From: Lactiplantibacillus mudanjiangensis
Lineage (GTDB): Bacteria; Bacillota; Bacilli; Lactobacillales; Lactobacillaceae
Length of the DNA stretch: 64,000 nt
Direction of reading: 5' to 3'
NCBI RefSeq assembly: GCF_005405385.1
Contig: NZ_BJDY01000007.1
Coordinates: 186,001-250,000, forward strand
Shown: positions 2,809 through 63,590 of the stretch, piece by piece
Position numbering within the stretch: the first letter of the stretch is position 1
How the letters are laid out: the number at the start of each line of letters is the position of its first letter
Made by a program: the position numbers and the translations under genes
The notes under the pieces: generated by a model
The model's input: the letters and a program-made list of their open reading frames with translations, nothing else
Told to the model about the DNA's origin: nothing
Databases searched by the model: none

Positions 2809-3070
2809 CACCTAAGGTTCGCCACATTCACTGTGACCTCACTCTCAGTTATGTTAGTGATGACTAAATTGACATCGCCAACTAACCGGAGCCAGCCAGT
2901 GATGGCGCCGGCCGTGCAAACATCGTTAGTCCGGGTGATTTTCCCGGACTTATGATGTGGACGACTTTTGAGACTAGCGGTTTTGGCTAGGCTTAAAAGC
3001 GAGGTGGAAGCCCGCTTTTTGGCTGGAGCCGGTCCCCACAGCCGGCAGAATCACTGGATGGCGTAGGTGA
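2809..3070 (-). repeat. Structured interspersed repeat A, copy 1 (right module plus collapsed left module)
   Basis: The right module (about 2888-3066) is complete. Its inverted ends GCCAGCCAGTGAT and ATCACTGGATGGC enclose the nested pair GCCGGCCGTG/CACAGCCGGC. The left module is reduced to its two ends, so its whole cloverleaf has been lost. The copy sits between the EamA gene terminator and the tannase promoter region. The strand is given so that all copies read in the direction of the gene whose 3' flank they occupy. Confidence 0.8.
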
Positions 3071-3097
3071 CCATTTTAAGCTTTAGTCAGCATAATA

Positions 3098-3131
3098 AAA
3101 AAGCGTTTGGGACAAGGCCCAAACGCTTTTG
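3098..3131 (-). terminator. Terminator of the EamA gene, bidirectional form
   Basis: A 13-base perfect stem AAAAGCGTTTGGG/CCCAAACGCTTTT with a short loop. It lies 150 bases after the EamA stop codon, with repeat B copy 1 between the two. Confidence 0.8.
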
Positions 3132-3150
3132 CTATCTCCGAATTTTTATA

Positions 3151-3270
3151 GTCGAAACGTGCGACAAAAGACTGCTCCCTCCGCTTAGCTACGAAATACG
3201 AAGGATTGAAAGTACATAATCATTCGTATTCCTAGGCTATGCTCGGTAGCAAATCGTCTTCTGTCCCACT
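3151..3270 (-). repeat. Covarying hairpin element B, copy 1 (3'-untranslated region)
   Basis: A long imperfect hairpin between the EamA stop codon and its terminator. It shares with copy 2 (39684-39800) the patches GTCGAAACGTGC, CTCCGCTTAGCTACG and CTAGGCTATGCTCG. The terminal stem here is AATACGAAGGATT/AATCATTCGTATT. In copy 2 the same place holds unrelated arms that also pair. The sequence between conserved patches therefore changes while pairing is kept. Confidence 0.75.
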
Positions 3271-3279
3271 CTCCAATAT

Positions 3280-4182
3280 TTAAGACTTAACCACAATTTT
3301 TTGTGTCGCCCAAAATTGTAAGAACGTCACGCCAACAATTAAGATAGCCCCAATAATACCGATCCAATTAAAATGTACACTTAAAAATAAGGCACTTAAA
3401 ATCGTCGCCGACAACGGTTCAATCGCCCCCAGAACACTTGCCGTTGTGGGATAAATATACGCCAAACTTTGTAAGAAGCACAAATAAGCAAACATGGTCC
3501 CGAAGATGACCACAAACCCAACTTCCAACCAGGCCATTAACGGTAACACTGGCCAAATTCGCCAAGCACCAGTGGCTAAACTAACGAGTACCCCACCGAT
3601 CAACATTGACCATCCCACAATCGGGACCGCACCGTAAGTTTTTAAGAGTTGCGTGGGCATCAATGTGTACACGGCCGCACCAACTGCCGCCAACAAGCCC
3701 CAAACAACCGCCACTACCGGTAGAGCTAATGAATCCAAGCGGCCTTCAGTCACAATTAAGACCGTCCCCAATATGGCCGAAAATACTGAAATCATATCAA
3801 TCTTGCTAGGAATCTGCCACAATTTTAATGCTAAATAGATGATGATGATCACCGGTGATAAAAATTGCAGAATCGCTGCTGTGGCCGCATTGCCAGTACT
3901 AATCGCCATAAAATACGTTAATTGGACCGCCGCCATTCCACACAAGCTAAAACTCACTAATTTTATCGTGGCCTGCCGTGAATGAAAGACCCAACCGATT
4001 TGAGTCTGCGTCAGCGCCCCGTATCCAAGTAATAATAGTCCCGAAACAACCATCCGCAATGAGACTAACCACAATGGATCGATGTTAGTTGTTTCAAATA
4101 GATGCTGGGCAACCGTTCCGGAACTCCCCCACAAAAATGGCCCACTACTGGCCAAGATTAAGCCAACAGTTTTCTTTTGCAT
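3280..4182 (-). CDS. EamA/DMT-family transporter
   Basis: A 300-residue integral membrane protein with about ten hydrophobic helices in two EamA-type halves. The N-terminal LILASSGPFLWGSSGTVAQ is typical of the drug/metabolite transporter superfamily. The second half ends in GAIEPLSATILSALFLSV, the usual signature of the EamA repeat. Relatives export amino acids or other metabolites across the cytoplasmic membrane. The start is 19 bases after the stop of the M20 peptidase gene, so the two form an operon in which the peptidase product may supply the export substrate (inference). The substrate is not visible from the sequence. Confidence 0.85.
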   Translation of the reverse strand: MQKKTVGLILASSGPFLWGSSGTVAQHLFETTNIDPLWLVSLRMVVSGLLLLGYGALTQTQIGWVFHSRQATIKLVSFSLCGMAAVQLTYFMAISTGNAATAAILQFLSPVIIIIYLALKLWQIPSKIDMISVFSAILGTVLIVTEGRLDSLALPVVAVVWGLLAAVGAAVYTLMPTQLLKTYGAVPIVGWSMLIGGVLVSLATGAWRIWPVLPLMAWLEVGFVVIFGTMFAYLCFLQSLAYIYPTTASVLGAIEPLSATILSALFLSVHFNWIGIIGAILIVGVTFLQFWATQKIVVKS

Positions 4183-13869: not shown

Positions 13870-13904
13870 AAAAAAAACACCAATCGCACTGATTGGTGTT
13901 TTTA
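13870..13904 (+). terminator. Terminator after the oxidoreductase gene
   Basis: The stem AACACCAATC/GATTGGTGTT is flanked by A-runs and T-runs, so it can act in both directions. Confidence 0.8.
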
Positions 13905-13938
13905 TATTGCCATCACTGATTAAAATCAGCTCTACTTG

Positions 13939-14183
13939 CCACCTGCCGTTCGCCCACATTGAGCCGGAACGCTGTGGGCGGACTGGTCGAGCCACAGAAC
14001 GGTCTCGACCATCATTTTGAACCACAAAACCCGTGTTTCAAAAATGCCGGCCTCTAAGCGATAAATCGCTAAGAGGCCCCCACGGCTGGGCTCAATATGA
14101 ACTCACTCACGGCTGTAATAGCGATTATTAGATCAATCTGTATTCACAATATAGCTGGCAGAATCACTGACTGACATAGATGG
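13939..14183 (-). repeat. Structured interspersed repeat A, copy 2 (left module, right module deleted)
   Basis: The left module is complete. P2 here is TGGTCGAG/CTCGACCA and P4 is GGCCTCTAAGCGAT/ATCGCTAAGAGGCC, both differing from the other copies by paired changes. Of the right module only the last part (GGCAGAATCACTGACTGAC) is left after an internal deletion. It lies between two terminators of convergent genes. Confidence 0.8.
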
Positions 14184-14211
14184 CTAATTGGCCTAGCTTT
14201 CATGTCAAAAG

Positions 14212-30564: not shown

Positions 30565-30597
30565 CAAAAAAGAGCTTAGGTCTTATCCCAAACTCAA
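30565..30597 (-). terminator. Terminator-like hairpin downstream of the aminotransferase and repeat A copy 3
   Basis: TTGAGTTTGGGATAAG and ACCTAAGCTC form an imperfect stem followed by six T on the minus strand. The form matches the gtrA terminator at 49873-49903. It lies about 565 bases after the aminotransferase stop codon, so that transcript may include repeat A copy 3. Confidence 0.5.
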
Positions 30598-30695
30598 GTA
30601 AACAACTTATTTATCAAATAACTAAAGGTTGAAAGCTAGGTTTTAACAATAATCGTTGATATGATAAGCATTCATCGATCAAAAGTAGTCATACT

Positions 30696-31139
30696 TGCCA
30701 CCTACCGTTCGCCCACATTGAGCCGGAACGCTGTGGGCGGACCGGTTCAGCCAAAAAGCGGTCTGAACCGTCGTTTTGAACCACTAAACCCGTGTTTCAA
30801 AAACGCCAGGCTCTAAGCGATAAATCGCTTAGAGACTCCCACGGCTGGGCTCAATGTGGGCTCACTCTCGGTTATAATAGTGATCGCTAATTAACTAGCA
30901 TCCGCATGATAACTGGAGTCAGCCAGTGATGGCGCCGGCCGTGAAAACAGCGTTAGTCCGGATGGTTTTCCCGGGCTTACGATGTGGACGACTTTTGAGA
31001 CTAGCGGTTCTGGCTAGGCTTAAAAGCGAGATGGAAGCCGGCACTGTGGCTGGAATCGGTCCCCACAGCCGGCAGAATCGCTGGCTGGCGTAGGTGAAAA
31101 ATTTAATTCAACTTAAGTCAATGTTGCTAAGGTTTCGAC
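30696..31139 (-). repeat. Structured interspersed repeat A, copy 3 (full length, reference copy)
   Basis: The left module (30696-30875) folds as a cloverleaf. P1 GCCCACATTGAGCC (30711-30724) pairs perfectly with 30848-30861, P1b GCTGTGGG (30730-30737) with 30838-30845, P2 CGGTTCAG (30743-30750) with 30763-30770, and P4 CTCTAAGCGAT (30811-30821) with 30824-30834. P3 is a TTTTGAA/TTCAAAA hairpin. The right module (30910-31094) has ends CAGCCAGTGAT/ATCGCTGGCTG, a nested GCCGGC pair and at least three inner hairpins. An 18-base perfect inverted repeat (30621-30638 and 31149-31166) encloses the whole copy. Confidence 0.85.
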
Positions 31140-31161
31140 CAATACATTTAGCTTTCAACCT

Positions 31162-32334
31162 TTAGTCAAATAAATGTAACTTCGCGATCCGTTCGCAAGC
31201 TTCGGTGAAGCGTGGTTCATCAATCAATAACCCCACACGCACATAACCTTCACCACCGTCACCAAATCCATTACCAGGCGCAACAGCTACCGCAGCTTTG
31301 TCTAATAGCAGATCCGCAAAGCTTTCACTCGTATAGCCTTCGGGTACCGGCATCCAAGCATAAAATGATCCGCCAGATGGATAAGGTTTCCAGCCAATCT
31401 TGCGCGCGGCTGTCCAAAATTGATTGCGCCGTTTTTCATACAACGCTACTAAGGAATTAACGGTGCTTTGATCACTATTTAAAGCCGCAATCGCCGCATC
31501 TTGAATAGCTGGAAAGACACTGACAAAGAGGTGATCTTGAATCAGATTAATTGCTTCGATCATATCGGCATTCCCAGCCGCAAAGCCAATACGCCAGCCG
31601 GCCATGTTGAAAGATTTCGACAATGTATACATTTCAATTCCGACATCTTTAGCTCCCGGTGTTTGTAAAAAACTTACGGGACGTTGCCCATCAAACCCAA
31701 TCGCACCATATGCAAAGTCATGGACGATGCCAATTTGCTTGTCGTTAGCGAAATCAACCGTTTGTTGGAAAAATTCTGGTGTTGCCACCGCACCGGTTGG
31801 ATTATTCGGATAATTCAAATAGAGTAATTTAGCAGCAGCCGCAACTTTTGGGTCAAGGTCGGCATAGTCCGGTAAGAATTGATTTTTGGCCTTTAATCGC
31901 AACAATTCGAGTTTAACTTGGGCTAGCGTAATCCCCGATAAATAGTCTGGATAACCTGGATCAGGCAAAATCATCGTATCGCCAGGGTTCAACAAGGCCA
32001 ACGGTAGTTCCACTAACCCAGTCTTGCTCCCACCCAAAATGGCAATTTCTTTTTCCGGGTCTAGTTCAACCCCATATTCGCGTTGATAAAAATCAGCCGC
32101 CGCTTGTTTAAGTCGTGGTAATCCACGAAATAAAGAGTACTTATGATCAGCCGGATCGGCCGTAGCTTGTTGCATCGCCTTGACCACAAACTCGGGCGTT
32201 GGCTGATCAGGATTACCTTGGCCCAAATTAATCACATCAGCCCCTGACGCGACCTTGGCATTTACTTTTTTCACTAAATTAGCAAAAAATTGCTTCGGTA
32301 ACTGTTGTAAAATTTTTGATTCTTCAAATTTCAA
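31162..32334 (-). CDS. PLP-dependent aminotransferase, class I/II
   Basis: A 390-residue fold-type I enzyme. NYPNNPTG (174-181) and the PLP-binding lysine in LSKSFNMAGWRIGF (Lys240) are clear, and the arginine that binds the substrate carboxylate is in the C-terminal GYVRVGLLID. It resembles the aspartate/LL-diaminopimelate/aromatic aminotransferase group, but the substrate cannot be fixed by eye. The enzyme would move amino groups between amino and 2-oxo acids in the cytoplasm. It appears to be a single gene. Its 3' flank holds the full-length repeat A, and its last bases form one arm of an 18-base inverted repeat. Confidence 0.88.
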   Translation of the reverse strand: MKFEESKILQQLPKQFFANLVKKVNAKVASGADVINLGQGNPDQPTPEFVVKAMQQATADPADHKYSLFRGLPRLKQAAADFYQREYGVELDPEKEIAILGGSKTGLVELPLALLNPGDTMILPDPGYPDYLSGITLAQVKLELLRLKAKNQFLPDYADLDPKVAAAAKLLYLNYPNNPTGAVATPEFFQQTVDFANDKQIGIVHDFAYGAIGFDGQRPVSFLQTPGAKDVGIEMYTLSKSFNMAGWRIGFAAGNADMIEAINLIQDHLFVSVFPAIQDAAIAALNSDQSTVNSLVALYEKRRNQFWTAARKIGWKPYPSGGSFYAWMPVPEGYTSESFADLLLDKAAVAVAPGNGFGDGGEGYVRVGLLIDEPRFTEACERIAKLHLFD

Positions 32335-38939: not shown

Positions 38940-39080
38940 GATTTGAAGGATAAATACAGCGTTAGAACCCTTATCGATAATAGACTAATCGCTGTAAAGA
39001 AAGTCATTCGAACTAATGACTTTATCGTCGGTTGGCTCCAATAAAATTGTTATGATTAACCAGACCAAATTAGTCACTAT

Positions 39081-39266
39081 CATAGCCGACAGTGAGTCCA
39101 CATTGAGCCCAGCCGTGGGAACTCTTAGCGATTTTATCGCTTAGAGTCTGGCGCTTTTGAAACGCGGTGTTGGCGGTTCAAAACGAAATTCAAGACCGCA
39201 CTTTGGCTTGAATTGTCCCCCCACAGCGTTCCGGCTCAACGTGGGCGAACGTTAGGCGGCAAGATA
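39081..39266 (+). repeat. Structured interspersed repeat A, copy 4 (left module only)
   Basis: Inverted relative to copies 1-3, as are its neighbouring genes. P1 is CCACATTGAGCC/GGCTCAACGTGG, P4 ACTCTTAGCGAT/ATCGCTTAGAGT, and P2 AATTCAAG/CTTGAATT, an entirely different but perfectly paired stem. No right module is present. It lies between the end of the liv operon and a small gene. Confidence 0.8.
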
Positions 39267-39361
39267 AAGCTCTTGTTTTTAATTAGGATCACCAAAACAT
39301 TTTAAATTATCAACCTAACGATGTATAATAAAGATGGTTCAAACGGAAGGGAGTAATCTTA

Positions 39362-39634
39362 ATGAGCCCAAATGATTTAGTTCTTTATTTACAACGCATC
39401 CAAGTTTTACCTACCCAAGATTTCTGGTGGCAGCCTTTTGGTCGAACCGCCATTGAAGTCGATGTCGATGGTAAACGCCAAGTCTATCAATTAGACCTAG
39501 CGCAACAAAGTTTGAAAGTGTTCCAAGCCTCCTCTCAGACAGAAATGTCCGGCGACTTTCACTTACAACAACAATTTACCTTAACTAAAGCCCAACTGGC
39601 CGTTTTACCACAGCCCGCTGCAGCGCTTGGTTAA
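39362..39634 (+). CDS. Small hypothetical protein, 90 residues
   Basis: A soluble-looking protein with alternating charged and beta-strand-like segments (RTAIEVDVDGKRQVYQLDLAQQSLKVFQ) and no membrane helix, signal or cysteine. AAGGGAG precedes the ATG at normal spacing, and a strong terminator follows, so expression is credible. It is a single gene behind repeat A copy 4. I do not recognise a family. Confidence 0.6.
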   Translation: MSPNDLVLYLQRIQVLPTQDFWWQPFGRTAIEVDVDGKRQVYQLDLAQQSLKVFQASSQTEMSGDFHLQQQFTLTKAQLAVLPQPAAALG

Positions 39635-39639
39635 GTCTA

Positions 39640-39675
39640 AAAAAGCACTTGAGAATTCATCTCAAGTGCTTTTTG
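39640..39675. terminator. Bidirectional terminator between the small gene and element B
   Basis: AAAGCACTTGAGA and TCTCAAGTGCTTT form a near-perfect stem with A/T tracts on both sides. On the minus strand it follows the MacB-like gene and element B copy 2. Confidence 0.8.
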
Positions 39676-39683
39676 TGTGGAGC

Positions 39684-39800
39684 TGTCGAAACGTGCAACC
39701 AAAGGTAACGCTCTCCGCTTAGCTACGTCAAGACAACGATTGAAAACCCCAATCATTGTCTTGACTAGGCTATGCTCGATCGTTAACCGCCTTGGCTTAC
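39684..39800 (-). repeat. Covarying hairpin element B, copy 2 (3'-untranslated region)
   Basis: It lies between the MacB-like gene's stop codon and the terminator. The terminal stem is GTCAAGACAACGATT/AATCATTGTCTTGAC, unlike copy 1 but equally well paired. The outer stem GGTAACG/CGTTAACC also replaces copy 1's AAGACTGCT/AGCA..GTCTT. Shared patches are GTCGAAACGTGC, CTCCGCTTAGCTACG and CTAGGCTATGCTCG. Confidence 0.75.
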
Positions 39801-39808
39801 ACTCTGAA

Positions 39809-42127
39809 CTATTCTGAACGTAACGCCGTTGCGGCATCTTTCTTCGCTGCCATCCGAGCTGGCACATGACCACCTAAGACCGTTAAGACGGTACTAATGA
39901 TAATCAAGATTAATCCATGTACTGGATTCAATTGCGCCACATTATTGAGTCCTGTAATATTACTCAAAATCGCATTGGCTGGGAACGTTAAGCCCCACGC
40001 AATCAAAACCCCTAAGCAACCTGAAGCCACTCCTAAAATCGTAGTTTCAGCATCAAAGACCCGCGTAATATCCTTCTTACGTGCCCCCAAGGCTTTCAAA
40101 ATCCCGATTTCTTTGGTCCGCTCAAGGACTGACGTGTACGTGATGATCGCAATCATAATCATACTCGTGACTAACGAAATGCCGGCAAAGGCAACTAAGA
40201 CATAAGTAATCGCGTCCATTAAACCACCGGTTAACGTTGACACTGTCCCAGCCAAGTCGGTATAGATCACCTTGTTGGCTTTAGACTTGCCTTTATTGTA
40301 CTTATCCAAGTATTTCAAGACTTTATCTTTGTTCTTGAAACTATTTGGATAGATCAAAATACTAGCGGGTGTCGTTGAACCACCTAAGTAGCTCACTAAG
40401 CTGGTCTTCGTATCCGAATCCACCTTAGCGCCAGTCATGACATTACTATCACTCTTTTTTTGCGCCTTTACAATCTTAGAATTCTTGTTGGCACTGATCA
40501 CGTTTTTGGATAATTGATCACTGTACGCAATCCCCGTTGCCAAAACATTTTCAGAATCCTTATTCTTGGCCTTCAAAATACCGACAACCTTAATCGTTTG
40601 ATTGTCTGAATTCTGATAAAGGCTCGTTGTCAACTTATTTGGTAAGTAATTCCCAGTTGGTAAACTTTGATAGTAATCGTTGTTGTTAACCAACTTAATC
40701 GTCGTACCCACTACCTTGGCATAACTCAAGTTTTGGTTGCTCTTCACATCAAAGCCTAGGTTCTTTAATGCATTGATGTTGGTATTCCGTTTACGGTCAG
40801 TAATCAAAACTACTTCGTTAGCCTTAGTTGGCAAACTCCCATTGATGACCGTGTAGTGTTTCTTTAAGAATGATTGTTGTTGGCTACCGCCAGGATAAAC
40901 TGACGTGCCAACGCCGGTCATGCTAGCCATTGCGGCCGAAGCACTATTTCCATTTTTACTATTTTGGTTTGAAAATGAGACCGTTTTGACCTTACCATCG
41001 ACTTTACGGATTAAGTTCATCCCCGTCGAATACGTATAAGTCACATTTTTACTTAGTTTTGGATCAAGATTTTTAATATACGTTAGGTAGCTTTTCGTTA
41101 ACTTATTCGTATGTGTTGCTTGATCAGACTGACTGGTTTTGGCCTTGATTTGACCCGTTTTAGCTGTCTTCGTCGTATCTTTAGTGCCCGTACTTTGACT
41201 CGTCACCGTTTGCGAAATCGTAATCGGCATTTGCGCTAACGTGTTACTTTGGGTCTTATCAATTTGCTTTTGGAACCCATTAGATAAGGACAAGACCACC
41301 GCAATTCCAATAATCCCAATACTTGAGGCAAAAGCTGTTAAGGCGGTCCGCCCTTTCTTAGTCTTAATATTGGTAAAGGACAACTTCAAAGCGGTCCAGA
41401 ACGTCATCTTGGTTTTCTTCAAGGCAAAATTATCGTCCGCGGCCACTTCTTCATACGGATTCGAATCATGTTGAATCTTCCCATCAGCAAAATTGATAAT
41501 CCGGTTAGCATATTGTTGAGCTAATTCTGGATTATGTGTCACCATAATAACTAAGCGTTCCGCTGATAATTCCTTAATCAGGTCCATGATTTGAACACTG
41601 GTTTCTGTATCTAACGCCCCAGTGGGTTCATCACATAACAAGATTTCAGGATCATTAGCAATCGCGCGGGCAATGGCGACCCGTTGCATTTGCCCACCAG
41701 AAAGTTGATTAGGCCGTTTATTCATGTGTGGTCCTAAGCCAACCCGTTCTAGGGCTTTAATCGCTTTGGCTTTCTTTTCAGCGTTGCCAACACCACTTAA
41801 AGTCATTCCCATTTCCACGTTATTGAGAATGCTTAAATGGCCGATAATATTATAACTCTGGAAAATAAACCCAACGGAATTGTTCCGGTAAGCGTCCCAA
41901 TCGCTTGCCTTAAAGTCTTTCGTTGATTTTCCTTTGATAATCAGATCGCCAGAATCATAAACATCTAGCCCGCCGATACCATTAAGCATGGTCGTCTTCC
42001 CAGAACCACTTGGTCCTAGAATGGCAACGAATTCACGTTGTCGAAATGATACCGAGACGTCATCAAGCGCTTTAGTCGTTGAATCGCCCACTTGGTAATA
42101 CTTTTTAATATGCTTTAGTTCCAACAT
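39809..42127 (-). CDS. MacB-like fused ABC ATPase-permease
   Basis: About 772 residues. The first 230 are a LolD/MacB-type ATPase ([34 protein letters not shown]). A membrane helix near 265-285, a large extracellular domain rich in Lys/Asn/Ser, and three C-terminal helices of the FtsX type follow, with [14 protein letters not shown] before the second of them. Such proteins in Firmicutes export or resist antimicrobial peptides or act as mechanotransmitters. The ATG at 42127 follows AAGGA, although the frame is open to 42163. No two-component system adjoins it. It is transcribed towards element B copy 2. Confidence 0.85.
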
Positions 42128-45044: not shown

Positions 45045-45102
45045 ATTTTCTAAAGATTTAACCTTGGTAATCGTGAATGTATTGATCCTAGCTAGCCCAC
45101 CA

Positions 45103-45284
45103 TCATAGCCAAGAGTGAGTCCACATTGAGCCCAGCCGTAGGCGTCTCTTGGCGATTTATCGCTTAGAGACTGGCGCTTTTGAAACACGGTTTTGGTGGT
45201 TCAAAACGACGGCCTAGACCACTTTTTGGCTAGGCCGGTCCACCCACAGCGTTCCGGCTCAATGTGGGCGAACGGTAGGCGACA
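45103..45284 (+). repeat. Structured interspersed repeat A, copy 5 (left module only)
   Basis: P1 is CCACATTGAGCC/GGCTCAATGTGG, and P2 is CGGCCTAG/CTAGGCCG, three substituted pairs from copy 3. P4 is GTCTCTTGGCGAT/ATCGCTTAGAGAC, and P3 a TTTTGAA/TTCAAAA hairpin. It lies between convergent usp and asnB, and the right module is absent. Confidence 0.8.
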
Positions 45285-45328
45285 ATCAAAAAGGATTTTT
45301 AACTGCTAATCACCTGTCACTTTTCAAC

Positions 45329-47431: not shown

Positions 47432-47452
47432 ATAACTAAAAGTAGCCATCCC

Positions 47453-47787
47453 TGCCACCTACCGTTCGCCCACCTCTAAGCGATAAATCGCTAAAAGCTT
47501 CTCATGGCTGACTCAATGTGAAGGCACTCTCGACTATGATGCTGATTGCGAAACAGATATAACGAACTAACCGGAGCTAGCCAGTGATGGCGCCGGCCGT
47601 GAAAACATCGTTAGGCCGGATGATTTTGCCGGACTTTACGATGTGGACGACTTTTAAGACTAGCGGTTTTGGCTAGGCTTAAAAGCGAGGTGGAAGCCCG
47701 ATCCTTGGCTGAAACCGGTCCCCACAGCCGGTAGAATCACTGGCTGGCGGGGGTGCCAACTCAAATCAATGTCGGCAAAGTTTCGAC
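47453..47787 (-). repeat. Structured interspersed repeat A, copy 6 (complete right module, collapsed left module)
   Basis: The left module has lost P1b to P3 by deletion but keeps its ends and the P4 hairpin CTCTAAGCGAT/ATCGCTAAAAG. The right module runs from GCCAGTGATGGC to ATCACTGGCTGGC, with the inner hairpin ACTTTTAAGACTAGC/GCTAGGCTTAAAAGC. The tail TCAATGT..GCAAAGTTTCGAC matches that of copy 3. It lies between lamR and its likely terminator. Confidence 0.8.
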
Positions 47788-47795
47788 GCCCCTAT

Positions 47796-48536
47796 TTAAT
47801 GACCGAATCCTTTTTTAACTAAATAACGACTAGCTGTTAACGAACACAGAATCGTTTCACCATCGGTTAGCGTCAATGTGCGTAAGGCTTTATTCAATCC
47901 CGTAATCTTATTAAGATTAACGACATATGATTTATGACACTTATAAAAGGCCGTATTTAATGCCGGCACTTCTTTTAACAGCCCATAGAATTCGACCTGA
48001 CCGTCATCCAGATGCAAAATAAGTTTATGCGCATTAGCCGAACTTTCAAAAAACAGAATTTTATCAACCTTAATCGTGCGCAAATTGGGACCGACTTTGA
48101 TCTCAATATAATCATTCACGTCCGTAGCCGTGGCCGCAAACCGATCTTGGGCCACTTGTAAGACTCGTTCTATCCGTGGCGCTAAGGCTTCCGGAGCATC
48201 CTTAATAATGAAATCAAGGGCTTCAATTTGATACTTAAAGACTAACAAAGCTAATTCTGAATGTGTCGTAATAAACACAATCTTGCTTTGCGGATCTTGA
48301 GCGCGTAACTCAGTTGCTAGTTCAATCCCATTGACCTCTGCTTTAAGTGAAATATCTAAAAAATACAACGCTTGCTGGGGTCGATGGGCCTGTAACTCTT
48401 GTCGAAGTTCGGCTGGTTTTTGGCAAGCTAGCCCCAGTTGCATATCTAATTGATGTGCGACAATCGCTGTCGTCACTAGGTGTTTGAGTTGAGTTAATTG
48501 TTTTGGATCATCTTCACAAATATAAACATTAATCAT
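47796..48536 (-). CDS. lamR: LytTR response regulator (AgrA/LamR type)
   Basis: A 246-residue regulator. The receiver domain (1-125) has the acidic pair EDD, the phosphoacceptor Asp in YFLDISL, and a late Lys. The LytTR DNA-binding domain (about 145-246, FFESSANAHKLILHLDD...) binds paired direct repeats. It overlaps the histidine kinase gene by eight bases. In L. plantarum the lamK-lamR pair near asnB lacks peptide genes and is said to respond together with LamBDCA. The same arrangement is seen here, with no agrB/agrD-like genes nearby. Confidence 0.88.
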   Translation of the reverse strand: MINVYICEDDPKQLTQLKHLVTTAIVAHQLDMQLGLACQKPAELRQELQAHRPQQALYFLDISLKAEVNGIELATELRAQDPQSKIVFITTHSELALLVFKYQIEALDFIIKDAPEALAPRIERVLQVAQDRFAATATDVNDYIEIKVGPNLRTIKVDKILFFESSANAHKLILHLDDGQVEFYGLLKEVPALNTAFYKCHKSYVVNLNKITGLNKALRTLTLTDGETILCSLTASRYLVKKGFGH

Positions 48537-55960: not shown

Positions 55961-58900
55961 TTAATGTTCACGCTTACGCCAACCGGTCAAACCAAGTAAA
56001 CTCCCTAACAAGGTCAACCCCCATAACGGTGAGACGGTTTGGTCGGACGTTTGTGGTAAACTCGTTGCTTGTTTATTTGCGGTCTTAATTTGGACTGTTG
56101 CTGCGTGGGCTGTCGGTTTAGTCAATACCACTTTATCTGTTGGCGTGATTTTCGCAGCAGCCATTTGCTTAGTTGGTTGTGCCGTGACGCCCTTAATCTT
56201 AGCCGCTGTTGGTTCAGATAACGTTGGCTGTTCTGGTTGATCAACATCGGTACCCGGGCCTGGATTAACAGTATCACCCGTACCAGGATTTTCAATTGGT
56301 TCGTAGATATAAGTTATCGTTAAATCGGTCAAACCAAACGTACCATTGGCATTGTCCGGTTGCGACACTAATCGGTAACCATCAATCGTTGCAGCCGTAG
56401 TCGCGTAGCTTTCACCCGTTTTGCCGGTAAATTGCTGATTTGGCGCTAATTGTTGACCGGTCGCCGTGACATAACGTGCGGTTACCGTGACAGTGTGATC
56501 CGGTGTTACTGGTGGTGTCACCGGATCCACTTGATAAATGAAGGTTAAGATTACTGGCTGACTACCATACATCCCTGAAGGCTGTCCTTGAACCGTTTGA
56601 TACGTGTATCCAGTGATAGTCGGTGCCGTCACCGCATAACTAGTCCCGATTTTGCCAGTTAAAACAGTATCAGCTTGCAATGTTTTACCAGTGGCATCTT
56701 GATATCGAACTGTCACGGTATTCGTTTGTTCCGCAATCGCATAAATCAACGTGACTTCGGCTGGGTGTTCATCATATACCCCGGTGATATCACCTTGCGC
56801 ACTTTGGTACGTGTATCCGCCAATCGTTGGCGTGGCGACTGTATAAGTTGAACCCACTTGTCCCGTTAAAATCGTGTCCGCTTGTAACGTCTTGCCATCC
56901 GTATCTTGGTAATGCACCGTCACCGTATTTTGTGCCGTCGCATAAACTAATGTTACTTCAGTTGGTTGTTCACCATAAGTCCCCGTCACGTCACCTTGGG
57001 CATCTTGATACGTGTAACCTTTAATCGTTGGTGTTTGAACCGCATAATCTGTCCCAATTTGTCCCGTTAAAACATCATCAGCCTGTAATGTCTTACCAGT
57101 TGTATCTTGATAATGAACCGTTACCGTTGATTGGGCTTCATTATAAATGAATGTGACTTCGGTTGGCGTATCACTGTAAGTCCCGCTGGCGTTACCTTGC
57201 GTTGATTGATACGTATAACCTAATAAGGTTGGTGCTTGAATCGCAAAGTCTGTCCCGATTTGCCCCGTTTCAATCGTATCAGCTTTAAGTGTCTTGCCAC
57301 TCATATCTTGATAATGAACCGTCACCGTTGAGTAAGCTTCATCATAAATGAACGTCACTTTGGTTGGCGTGTCACCGTAAGTTCCACTGGCATTGCCTTG
57401 TGTTGATTGATACGTATAACCTAATAAAGTTGGTGCTTGAATCGCAAAATCTGTTCCGATTTGTCCCGTTTCAATCGTATCAGCCTTGAGCATTTTACCG
57501 CTCGCATTTTGGTAGTGAACCGTTATTGTTGAATAGGCTTCATTGTAAATGAACGTCACTTCGGTTGGCGTATCGCCGTAAGTCCCGCTGGCATTACCTT
57601 GTGTTGATTGGTATGTGTATCCTAATAACGTTGGCGCTTGAATATTAAAGTCCGTTCCGATTTGCCCGGTTTCGGTCGTATCGGCCTTGAGCGTTTTACC
57701 ACTCGCATTTTGATAGTGAACCGTTACCGTTGAATAGGCCATCTGATAAACAAAGTTCACGGTTTGTGCCGTATCTGAGAACATCCCCGTCATGTTAGTC
57801 GGGACGGTCTTCAACTGATAGCCAGTAATCGCTTTGGCTTGGGCCGCATAGCTTTCGCCAACTAACCCAGATAGCGTTTCAGTATCAGCCAAAATCTTGC
57901 CCTGCTCATCAACATAATTAACCGTAACGTCTTCGGCATCGTTCGCAACAATATACGGTGTAAACATATCCGCAACCTCGTTACCAGCCGCATCATTAAA
58001 AATAGAAATCATGTAGTACGTATATGGGCTTTGAACCACTCCGTAACCTGGGTAAGGACTTGTTGTTGGCCCTGGCGTGATTTGACTCCGCATCATTTGA
58101 TAGTCAATTTGATCGCCATTAAGCGTATTGGTTCCACCATTGTAAAATAATCGAACCGCCGCATTAGGAAAACCAGTTGGAAAAATCGGAATTGCTCGGC
58201 TAGCTGAATCGGTCAACATAAAGGTCATACCCTTTGGTGCTTTCACCGGATTGGTCATGGTATATTTACCAGTCGTTGGAATGTAGACCGCCGTATTATC
58301 AATAAATTGACCCGTAAAACCGAATCCCGCTGTATACTGGGCCGCATCTAACGATGAAAAATCCGCGATACAATCATTGTTTAAATTTAAATCAACTAAG
58401 TTTTTTAAATTGGCAATTGGTGTAATATCAGAAACTCGCTGACTAACTAACTGCAAATAAGTTAGCTTTGTTAAGGCAGCCAATGGCGTAATATCCACAA
58501 TATCACCACGCATTGCCTCACTAGCATTTAAATTATTGAGAAGATCCAAACTTGTTAGATTGGTTGCATATTGTAGCCCCGCTAATGAAAACGAACTTTT
58601 GCCATCGATATAGCTGGATACTCGAGAATTTTGTAATGAAAATTGTGTTAAGTACAATAGGTCACTTTGTTTAATATCTGCAACACTGGCCCACGTCTTT
58701 CCTGCATCACTTGCATTCAAATTATACAGAACAGCCTGTTGCAACGTTTTATTTGGCATCCATTGATCAATGGTTTCATTGTCTACTGCTGCCACCGCCG
58801 CTACAGGAGTGGCCATCGTTCGCGTAGCCCGCTGTGGCTTGGCAACCGACTTAGCTGGGGTTGCTGCACTAACTGGCTGCGCAACTGATGACGCCGATTC

Positions 58901-59341
58901 GGTAGATGTCGCCGGAGTTGCAGCGTTTTCATTAGAGGTCGTACTTGAGGTTCCAGCTGAAGCTGCCGGTTCACTACTACTATTCGAAGCCGGCGCTGTT
59001 GACCCGGCTGAAGTCGTTGATTTAGGCGTTGCTGAGCTTGTCGCTGAAGTGGCTTGGCTAGCCTCACTCGTTGTTTTTTGGTCAGCTGAAGTCGCGGGTT
59101 GTGTTGCCGCAGAAGTGGTCAATTGCGCCGTTGCTGTGCTTGCTGGTAAGGCGACCGATTTAGAGGCCGTTGTTGATGCCGTTACCGCTGTCGTCCCAGT
59201 CTCAGTCGACTCACTGGCCGTATCAGCTTGTGCCATCGTGGTCTGCCACGTGCCAAGTACTAATACTGACGTGGTAATCCCCGCCACGAGCCAAAGTTTA
59301 CCTTTTTTATACATCTTAAAATGCTGTTTCGAATTAATCAC
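55961..59341 (-). CDS. LPxTG-anchored MucBP adhesin with leucine-rich repeats
   Basis: A 1126-residue surface protein. The N-terminus has the KxYKxGKxW signal (MYKKGKLWLVAG). Residues 40-175 are Ser/Thr/Ala-rich, 190-350 carry short leucine-rich repeats (LTKLTYLQLVSQRVSDITPIA), and about 480-1030 hold eight MucBP domains. Three of these (starting YSTVTVHYQ or YSTITVHYQ) are almost identical. The end has LPQTSD, a hydrophobic helix and KREH, so sortase A links it to peptidoglycan. MucBP domains bind mucin or host glycans. The GTG start follows GGGGGG. Confidence 0.92.
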   Translation of the reverse strand: MINSKQHFKMYKKGKLWLVAGITTSVLVLGTWQTTMAQADTASESTETGTTAVTASTTASKSVALPASTATAQLTTSAATQPATSADQKTTSEASQATSATSSATPKSTTSAGSTAPASNSSSEPAASAGTSSTTSNENAATPATSTESASSVAQPVSAATPAKSVAKPQRATRTMATPVAAVAAVDNETIDQWMPNKTLQQAVLYNLNASDAGKTWASVADIKQSDLLYLTQFSLQNSRVSSYIDGKSSFSLAGLQYATNLTSLDLLNNLNASEAMRGDIVDITPLAALTKLTYLQLVSQRVSDITPIANLKNLVDLNLNNDCIADFSSLDAAQYTAGFGFTGQFIDNTAVYIPTTGKYTMTNPVKAPKGMTFMLTDSASRAIPIFPTGFPNAAVRLFYNGGTNTLNGDQIDYQMMRSQITPGPTTSPYPGYGVVQSPYTYYMISIFNDAAGNEVADMFTPYIVANDAEDVTVNYVDEQGKILADTETLSGLVGESYAAQAKAITGYQLKTVPTNMTGMFSDTAQTVNFVYQMAYSTVTVHYQNASGKTLKADTTETGQIGTDFNIQAPTLLGYTYQSTQGNASGTYGDTPTEVTFIYNEAYSTITVHYQNASGKMLKADTIETGQIGTDFAIQAPTLLGYTYQSTQGNASGTYGDTPTKVTFIYDEAYSTVTVHYQDMSGKTLKADTIETGQIGTDFAIQAPTLLGYTYQSTQGNASGTYSDTPTEVTFIYNEAQSTVTVHYQDTTGKTLQADDVLTGQIGTDYAVQTPTIKGYTYQDAQGDVTGTYGEQPTEVTLVYATAQNTVTVHYQDTDGKTLQADTILTGQVGSTYTVATPTIGGYTYQSAQGDITGVYDEHPAEVTLIYAIAEQTNTVTVRYQDATGKTLQADTVLTGKIGTSYAVTAPTITGYTYQTVQGQPSGMYGSQPVILTFIYQVDPVTPPVTPDHTVTVTARYVTATGQQLAPNQQFTGKTGESYATTAATIDGYRLVSQPDNANGTFGLTDLTITYIYEPIENPGTGDTVNPGPGTDVDQPEQPTLSEPTAAKIKGVTAQPTKQMAAAKITPTDKVVLTKPTAHAATVQIKTANKQATSLPQTSDQTVSPLWGLTLLGSLLGLTGWRKREH

Positions 59342-63113: not shown

Positions 63114-63165
63114 AACGATGAAATTTTGATTTTGGGGCTAAGGGTTGAATAAAAGTAACTCACAG

Positions 63166-63484
63166 CTTGCTGCCTACCGTTCGTCCACCTTGAGCCGGAA
63201 CGCTGTGGGCGGACCGGCTCAGCCAAAAAGCGGTCTGAATCGTCGTTTTGAACCACCAAGCCCGTGTTTCAAAAGCGCCAATCTCTAAGCGATAAATCGC
63301 TAAGAGATTCCCACGGCTGGGCTCAATGTGAACTCACTCTCGGTTATGATAGTTACTAGATTGATTAATTTCACGATATAGCCGGAGCCAACCAGTGATG
63401 GCGCCGGCCGTGAAAACATCGTAAGCCCGTACTTTGGCTGGAGTCGGTCCCACAGCCGGCAGAATCACTGGCTGGCGTAGGTAA
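63166..63484 (-). repeat. Structured interspersed repeat A, copy 7 (left module plus shortened right module)
   Basis: The left module is complete. P4 here is AATCTCTAAGCGAT/ATCGCTAAGAGATT, with an outer stem that differs from copies 2, 4 and 5 by paired changes, and P2 is CGGCTCAG/CTGAATCG with one mismatch. The right module has lost about 85 inner bases but keeps its ends GCCAACCAGTGAT and ATCACTGGCTGGC. It separates the MFS gene from the cop operators. Confidence 0.8.
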
Positions 63485-63590
63485 CCAATTAATATTAACA
63501 AGGCTTCCACACTATATTTATGTTTCAATCATTAGTTTACCAAAAATTCCCATGACACCACTTCATGCCATGAGGACCAATTAACTAATT

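Follow-up and report, generated by a model that had tools for sequence, protein, structure and literature searches.

What kind of element is a repeat that recurs seven times between the genes of a 64,000-nucleotide stretch of Lactiplantibacillus mudanjiangensis DNA (the window), and what keeps its arms paired as their letters change? A sequence-only reading of this stretch had described the left part of the repeat as a covarying cloverleaf, had taken the paired changes as the mark of selection on structure in RNA or single-stranded DNA, and had recognised no described family. Judged from its sequence features, the repeat is a non-autonomous element of the MITE type, which would have been mobilised in trans. 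Taken by themselves, the compensatory changes would have passed for proof that a structured RNA is at work, a conclusion that the missing clear excess of G-U pairs opposes.

Copies of the repeat in the window

Profile matches located the repeat at all seven places previously listed, in differing states of preservation:

2828..3092 (+), copy 1: most of the left module gone, right module retained; profile positions 230-503
13886..14199 (+), copy 2: left module retained, right module lost; profile positions 25-290 and 446-494
30623-31164 (+), copy 3: profile match
38999..39277 (-), copy 4: left module present, decay in the right part; profile positions 62-349
45097..45318 (-), copy 5: left module alone; profile positions 42-262
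47435..47800 (+), copy 6: left module largely lost, right module retained; profile positions 57-97 and 190-532
63144..63534 (+), copy 7: left module retained, right module with internal deletion; profile positions 49-335 and 414-544

The complete left cloverleaf is present in five of the seven copies (2, 3, 4, 5 and 7); in copies 1 and 6 it is mostly gone.

Boundaries, ends and insertion of copy 3

The limits first reported for copy 3 (30696-31139) proved too short: in an alignment of 30 long home-genome copies and the six other window copies, homology reaches the inverted ends (TIRs) in many of the long copies, these ends lying at 30622-30638 and 31149-31165 in copy 3. The match of this copy to the family profile covers positions 2-544 of 545. 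Its features are as follows:

30614..30621 (no strand): target duplication (TSD) TCAAATAA, left copy, 8 bp, exact repeat of 31166-31173
30622..31165 (+): whole mobile element, 544 bp, defined by ends common to the aligned copies, TIRs and TSD
30622..30638 (+): left TIR CTAAAGGTTGAAAGCTA, 17 bp, exact
30699..30705 (+): outer stem, 5' arm CACCTAC, enclosing both modules in the fold of 30690-31110
30710..30862 (+): left cloverleaf module with P1 (14 bp), P2 (8 bp) and hairpins H1, H2 and H3
30922..31085 (-): right module, an inverted and diverged duplicate of the left module, its limits taken from copies 1 and 6
31090..31096 (+): outer stem, 3' arm GTAGGTG, in the fold of 30690-31110
31149..31165 (-): right TIR, reverse complement of CTAAAGGTTGAAAGCTA, 17 bp, exact
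31166..31173 (no strand): target duplication TCAAATAA, right copy, 8 bp, exact repeat

Across the home genome, the TIR pattern was found at 145 sites with up to 2 mismatches, compared with 2 sites for a reversed-pattern control. Amongst 28 distinct elements bounded by both TIRs (drawn from loci L002-L030, L056-L085 and contig C7), 19 carry an exact 7-9 bp duplication and 6 one with a single mismatch, with a recognisable target duplication missing in 3; the shuffled-partner control gave a mean of 0.65 and a maximum of 4 over 1000 rounds. For the relatives, a list of 22 TIR pairs that was partly preselected by duplication and contains some spurious or overlapping pairs includes 9 with a 7-9 bp duplication at up to one mismatch (L037, L086, L097, L098, L101, L104, L105, L106 and L112).

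The one site tested for an unoccupied counterpart, that of copy 3, is exactly empty in Lactiplantibacillus daowaiensis, where a single TCAAATAA is present. Comparison with this empty site reveals that the aminotransferase gene lost its last codon to the insertion of copy 3 and gained a new TAA from the right TIR (31162-31173). A terminator-like hairpin at 30572-30595 (-), now beyond copy 3, was possibly once the aminotransferase gene's own. No ORF of at least 90 aa lies inside copy 3. The features by which a MITE is recognised are found together in this copy: TIRs, a TSD, a length under ~600 bp, the lack of genes, an empty site and ends common to an insertion sequence (IS). The inverted ends, the duplications, the empty site, the partner IS and the inverted second module all lie beyond the sequence-only reading.

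Copy number and genomic placement

Contig C7 (423,012 bp) contains 42 loci with profile matches at E<=1e-5, which extrapolates to ~327-330 loci for the home genome. Decay and internal deletion are common among the copies of this contig: 11 of the 42 loci match as two pieces, the gap falling mostly over the left or right module. In another genome (G020), seven elements have internal deletions and are otherwise 95-99% identical; the left module alone is missing in two elements (query 76-245 and 82-248), so that such loss appears recent and recurrent there.

The 40 loci scoring above 100 bits have convergent neighbours in 17 cases, neighbours in the same direction in 15 and 8, and divergent neighbours in none, compared with 56 divergent gaps out of 233 overall (p 7e-5; genes called as simple ORFs). 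The insertion point is biased in composition, with a frequency of 0.57-0.68 for T between -15 and -11 and of 0.57-0.68 for A between +11 and +14; T-tracts occur in 18 of 56 element flanks, whereas control windows have them in 4 of 56 cases (p 0.0015), and several flanks have a terminator-like look. The gene-end placement may stem from targeting or from survivorship, which are indistinguishable here.

Fold and internal anatomy

In copy 3, the left module is closed by a perfect 14-bp stem followed by a stem of 8 pairs (one T-G), in line with the original description, and the stems that had been quoted as P2 for copies 2-5 (here H1) stand in the aligned rows as written. The fold of the left module is unusually stable (z = -7.2, with none of 200 shuffles as stable), as are those of 30690-31110 (z = -10.4) and of the opposite strand (z = -8.3), for each of which none of 100 shuffles was as stable. 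Chance structure was ruled out by these shuffle tests together with the pair counts given below. Copy 3 is, furthermore, similar to its reverse complement from end to end (E 1.2e-15).

A covariance model built from left modules (R1) did not report the right module in copy 3; its minus-strand matches at 2895-3058 (copy 1) and 47579-47745 (copy 6) correspond to this module. Because the stems are palindromic, left modules score 27-38 bits on the wrong strand, and module orientation was therefore taken from separate places only. When applied to 28 loci from relatives, R1 matched 23 at E<=0.01: a plus match followed by a minus match at a separate place was found at 12 loci (L033, L040, L055, L100, L223, L225, L232, L252, L254, L255, L256 and L258), and L032 carries two matches in the same orientation. 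A similar layout, with long closing stems enclosing hairpins, is seen in the folds of sequence-based alignments of two sister families (22 and 21 rows).

Covariation and strand tests

In a sequence-only alignment of 57 left modules from the home genome, the 55 named pairs are 92.9% paired and 21 of them have changed on both sides (81 cells), compared with 9.0 pairs and 26.0 cells in shuffles and 7 pairs and 20 cells in the best slid version; none of 500 shuffles reached the observed values. In 36 model-aligned modules from relatives, both-side changes affect 52 of the 55 pairs (635 cells), as opposed to 44.0 pairs and 188 cells when shuffled and 36 pairs and 133 cells in the best slid version, the alignment in this case being fitted to the structure and leaning towards it. 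That pairing is kept through changes on both sides thus holds in both sets, as had been claimed from a few copies. The R-scape type of check that had been proposed gave a divided answer: an R-scape-like tree-based test found no significant pairs in the home genome over all pairs, whereas amongst the structure pairs only, 3 of 42 in the left and 1 of 50 in the right module were significant (null mean 0.03). The covariation is strong by pair counts, these being counts of named pairs and, for the relatives, of a model-fitted alignment.

With wobble-consensus pairs left out, 2766 of 3038 stem cells in the home genome and 1557 of 1802 in relatives are Watson-Crick. The H1 end (AGCC..CGGTCT) and a few junction letters are conserved across families; the stems are not.

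Selection on an RNA made from one strand is expected to leave G-U commoner than A-C among single departures from pairing. Counted in the sense of the module, G-U and A-C account for 53 and 109 cells in the home genome (31 and 25 pair types) and for 53 and 77 cells in relatives (26 and 38 pair types). A further count, in which three families were pooled, used strand-neutral pairs, namely those that appear in both strands' folds and were selected with G-U excluded: here 162 G-U events stand against 144 A-C events (share 0.53, CI 0.47-0.59; unpaired columns 109 and 114), and 417 cells against 356 (p 0.03; unpaired columns 430 and 388, Fisher p 0.6), with the direction differing between families (home 272:220, A 71:94, B 74:42). 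Inverted modules could cancel in the strand-neutral count, a flaw from which the module-sense count is free. An initial one-strand G-U excess (180:22 in the left and 155:22 in the right module) fell to 11:9 and 13:6, and 25:20 for the core, with pairs present on both strands, so that it was largely an artefact of pair choice from RNA folds and of conserved wobbles. Since no clear G-U excess over A-C is found, a DNA-level or strand-neutral cause of the pairing is favoured over constraint on a one-strand RNA. Of the original proposal of selection on structure in RNA or single-stranded DNA, the kept pairing of the cloverleaf stands and the RNA part is not favoured by the strand test, which nevertheless leaves room for it.

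The partner insertion sequence

The TIR is present at up to one mismatch in 12 of the 21 genomes of the genus. Two loci, L093 and L095, have the same ends and broken transposase frames. One open piece of L093 scores 254.4 bits (cut-off 250, E 1.8e-75) against NCBIfam NF049925, a model of the IS4 family, and also matches Pfam DDE families; the second piece alone reaches 155.5 bits, under the cut-off. The NF049925 scan covered these pieces of L093. In a protein search, the first piece found matches in 7 of the 21 genomes, among which G019, G008 and G020 have long open frames. The intact ISs (L133, L134 and L135) are 1.56-1.57 kb long, encode a transposase of ~450 aa and have TIRs that depart from the 17-base consensus at 0-3 bases. 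L133 is flanked by the 7-bp TSD GACTTTA and L135, which adjoins a T-tract, by the 7-bp TSD ATAGGAG, with a doubtful 5-bp duplication only at L134; at L139, the second IS copy of G020, a clear TIR pair was not seen. The window repeat resembles these IS4-type elements in its ends (13 bp and more in common) and in the 7-bp duplications of L133 and L135, but the intact IS encodes a transposase and the window repeat does not. The R1 module is in turn absent from the IS loci L133, L134, L135 and L095.

In the home genome, the protein search revealed one short IS remnant (L137), and an intact partner IS was found by neither the TIR nor the protein searches. On plasmids, 36 records match the partner IS, one of them, from L. 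plantarum (97.7%), at >=80% coverage, and pieces with 99-100% identity occur in L. plantarum and Lacticaseibacillus paracasei; plasmids may therefore offer the transposase a way back.

Distribution among genomes

An R1 search of 80 genomes with strict filters, scoring 38 candidates per genome, gave matches at E<=1e-3 in 17 genomes from four genera, home included: 14 of 21 from the genus (home included), 3 of 28 from other genera of the family (G035, G069 and G070) and 0 of 31 from other families. A permissive search (E<=1) gave matches in 8 of 10 genomes, with 15 in L. daowaiensis, 116 in L. songbeiensis, 109 in L. dongliensis, 13 in G003, 7 in G005, 4 in G013, 3 in G015 and 1 in G019, and no match in G001 and G002. 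Absence from L. daowaiensis, L. songbeiensis and L. dongliensis, as a DNA search without matches had suggested, was overturned by these covariance-model matches. G035, from another genus, contains no fewer than 38 matches to the module, the best at 117 bits (loci L284 and L301); by R1 its modules are nearer to the window family than those of the other genus genomes listed, which could reflect transfer between genera.

No match to the home-genome element was present in 72,556 plasmid and 50,697 phage records, a collection in which records near the home genome may be missing, and the family A element matched no plasmid. Within the window, Rfam gave no matches at the gathering score, and the sole match inside copy 3 at E<=5 scored 16 bits against a gathering score of 50; a known RNA family was rejected on this basis, and the earlier failure to recognise a described family was borne out as far as Rfam is concerned.

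Relationship to large cruciform repeats and other known elements

Single R1 matches were also found in larger elements of L. plantarum EGD-AQ4 (G015), G003, G005 and G019. Between their homology ends, these elements, which are common to the best loci of the four genomes, measure 802 nt (L316, G005), 810 nt (L318, G003), 871 nt (L320, G019) and 1083 nt (L317, G015). L316 and L318 align over 811 nt at 89% identity, and both, being the two of the four that were checked, are palindromic over ~620 nt at 61-63%. CTAAAGG-type ends on both sides were found at none of 24 further module loci of relatives (plantarum-type included) within the stretch scanned. Pieces of the L316 element occur in 26 plasmid records (19 Lactiplantibacillus and 7 Ligilactobacillus), none of which covers 80% of it; the Lactiplantibacillus plasmids include, among the matches listed, those of L. 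plantarum, L. pentosus and L. paraplantarum.

According to the passages on them in PMC5643018, the L. plantarum supermotifs (LPSMs; Wels 2009) are conserved, multi-copy, cruciform sequences of 800-1000 nt that are specific to L. plantarum, and are described there as transcribed and stable. From their size, shape and host, the larger elements are probably LPSMs, and since they fit this description the window repeats are probably shorter and more numerous relatives. The grade is kept at probable because G003 and G005 (80% and 78% identity to EGD-AQ4) are no nearer to this strain than the L. daowaiensis-like G006 (78%); G015 is at 100% and G019 is nearest at 92-95%. As far as those same passages describe the LPSMs, the window repeats are likewise large, intergenic, cruciform-like and multi-copy, but their module is found beyond L. 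plantarum, where LPSMs are reported there to be absent. They differ, moreover, in their length of 544 bp and in their clear TIRs and duplications. The window family also has many more copies per genome than the LPSMs, of which some two dozen are known.

Like other bacterial MITEs, the window repeat is short, gene-free and high in copy number, with TIRs, duplications and IS-type ends; it differs from them in an interior of two inverted cloverleaf-like modules that is kept over much of the genus. The sequence-only reading had named a clear match to a known MITE as grounds for abandoning its view, and such an element was found in kind (MITE-type, and probably kin of the LPSMs), though not by name: no description of these elements as MITEs was found in the open-licence library searched. 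What is new is a high-copy, clearly transposon-like variant of already known large cruciform repeats, which offers a mobile origin for the large cruciform repeats described in L. plantarum and widens the range of such repeats across the genus and into further genera.

Explanations for the paired interior

Taken as a whole, the observations are very probably explained by a MITE moved in trans by an IS4-type transposase, with its interior pairing maintained at the DNA level. The transposase would have recognised the ends of the element and inserted it next to T-tracts in AT-rich sequence, typically at gene 3' ends and often near terminators. A burst of the family would have been followed by the loss of its transposase, as a result of which many copies would now be decaying, often with loss of a cloverleaf. 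Two options may account for the maintenance of pairing at the DNA level: extrusion of cruciforms or hairpins may aid transposition by bringing the ends together, or template switching between hairpin arms may repeatedly re-match them. A more specific reading, in which the fold is actively maintained, the inverted cloverleaves extrude from supercoiled or lagging-strand DNA and bring the ends close for the IS4-type transposase, and the LPSMs are old, enlarged members, appears unlikely to us; were it true, it would mean that the stems vary freely over the genus with pairing and the H1 end retained. Template switching between arms at replication could also produce a fold that has no function at all. 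Such neutral correction of palindromes is possible, if rather doubtful: the mostly Watson-Crick stems, the joint change of several pairs within one hairpin in copies 2, 4 and 5, the lack of a clear strand preference and the frequent internal deletions all agree with it, but pure template switching leaves the H1-end letters common to the families unexplained, as it does the similar multi-branched layout in distant families.

It is this conservation of the H1 end and a few junction letters, in the face of unconserved stems, that keeps an RNA reading alive, in which a transcribed cloverleaf acts as a 3' UTR stabiliser, a processing signal or a protein-binding RNA and mobility explains the spread only; given the inverted arrangement of the modules, one of the two would be read in sense whichever side the transcript came from. 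The position of the elements at gene 3' ends and the LPSMs' description as transcribed and stable in the passages cited above (PMC5643018) agree with a structured RNA, but neither the module-sense nor the strand-neutral count places G-U clearly above A-C, Rfam contains no match, and promoter-like sites around copy 3 number 1 compared with 1.4 in shuffles and lie outside the element, so that we consider this reading tentative and would not expect it to hold. Stable folds on both strands, together with the 17 of 40 elements between convergent genes and none between divergent ones, could also point to domestication by the host, as a bidirectional terminator or as a boundary that separates convergent genes; this is quite improbable, however, given that two terminator-like sites were found, both outside copy 3 and none inside it, and that copies often decay or lose internal segments. 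REP/BIME sequences likewise consist of palindromic units, arranged as inverted pairs at the 3' ends of genes, but REPs are not known to have TIRs or duplications and depend on another transposase. Movement of REP/BIME-like palindromes by a Y1 (RAYT) transposase is barely credible for a family with clear TIRs, duplications of 7-8 bp and a DDE-type partner, none of which RAYT elements are known to have; the duplications by themselves largely refute it already. The MITE with pairing maintained at the DNA level provides a natural case for separating RNA-level from DNA-level causes of covariation, and urges caution in searches for RNA families: palindromic transposon interiors can yield strong covariation.

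Other repeats in the window

Another intergenic repeat, ~170 nt long, has inverted arms but no relation to the first and is possibly another MITE family; it lies at 3101-3280 and 39631-39810 of the window, these being two of its six strong places on contig C7. Tandem repeats of ~201 bp at 56555-57642 fall within an ORF at 55961-59341 (-), the 1126-aa product of which contains eight MucBP stretches and a KxYKxGKxW signal.
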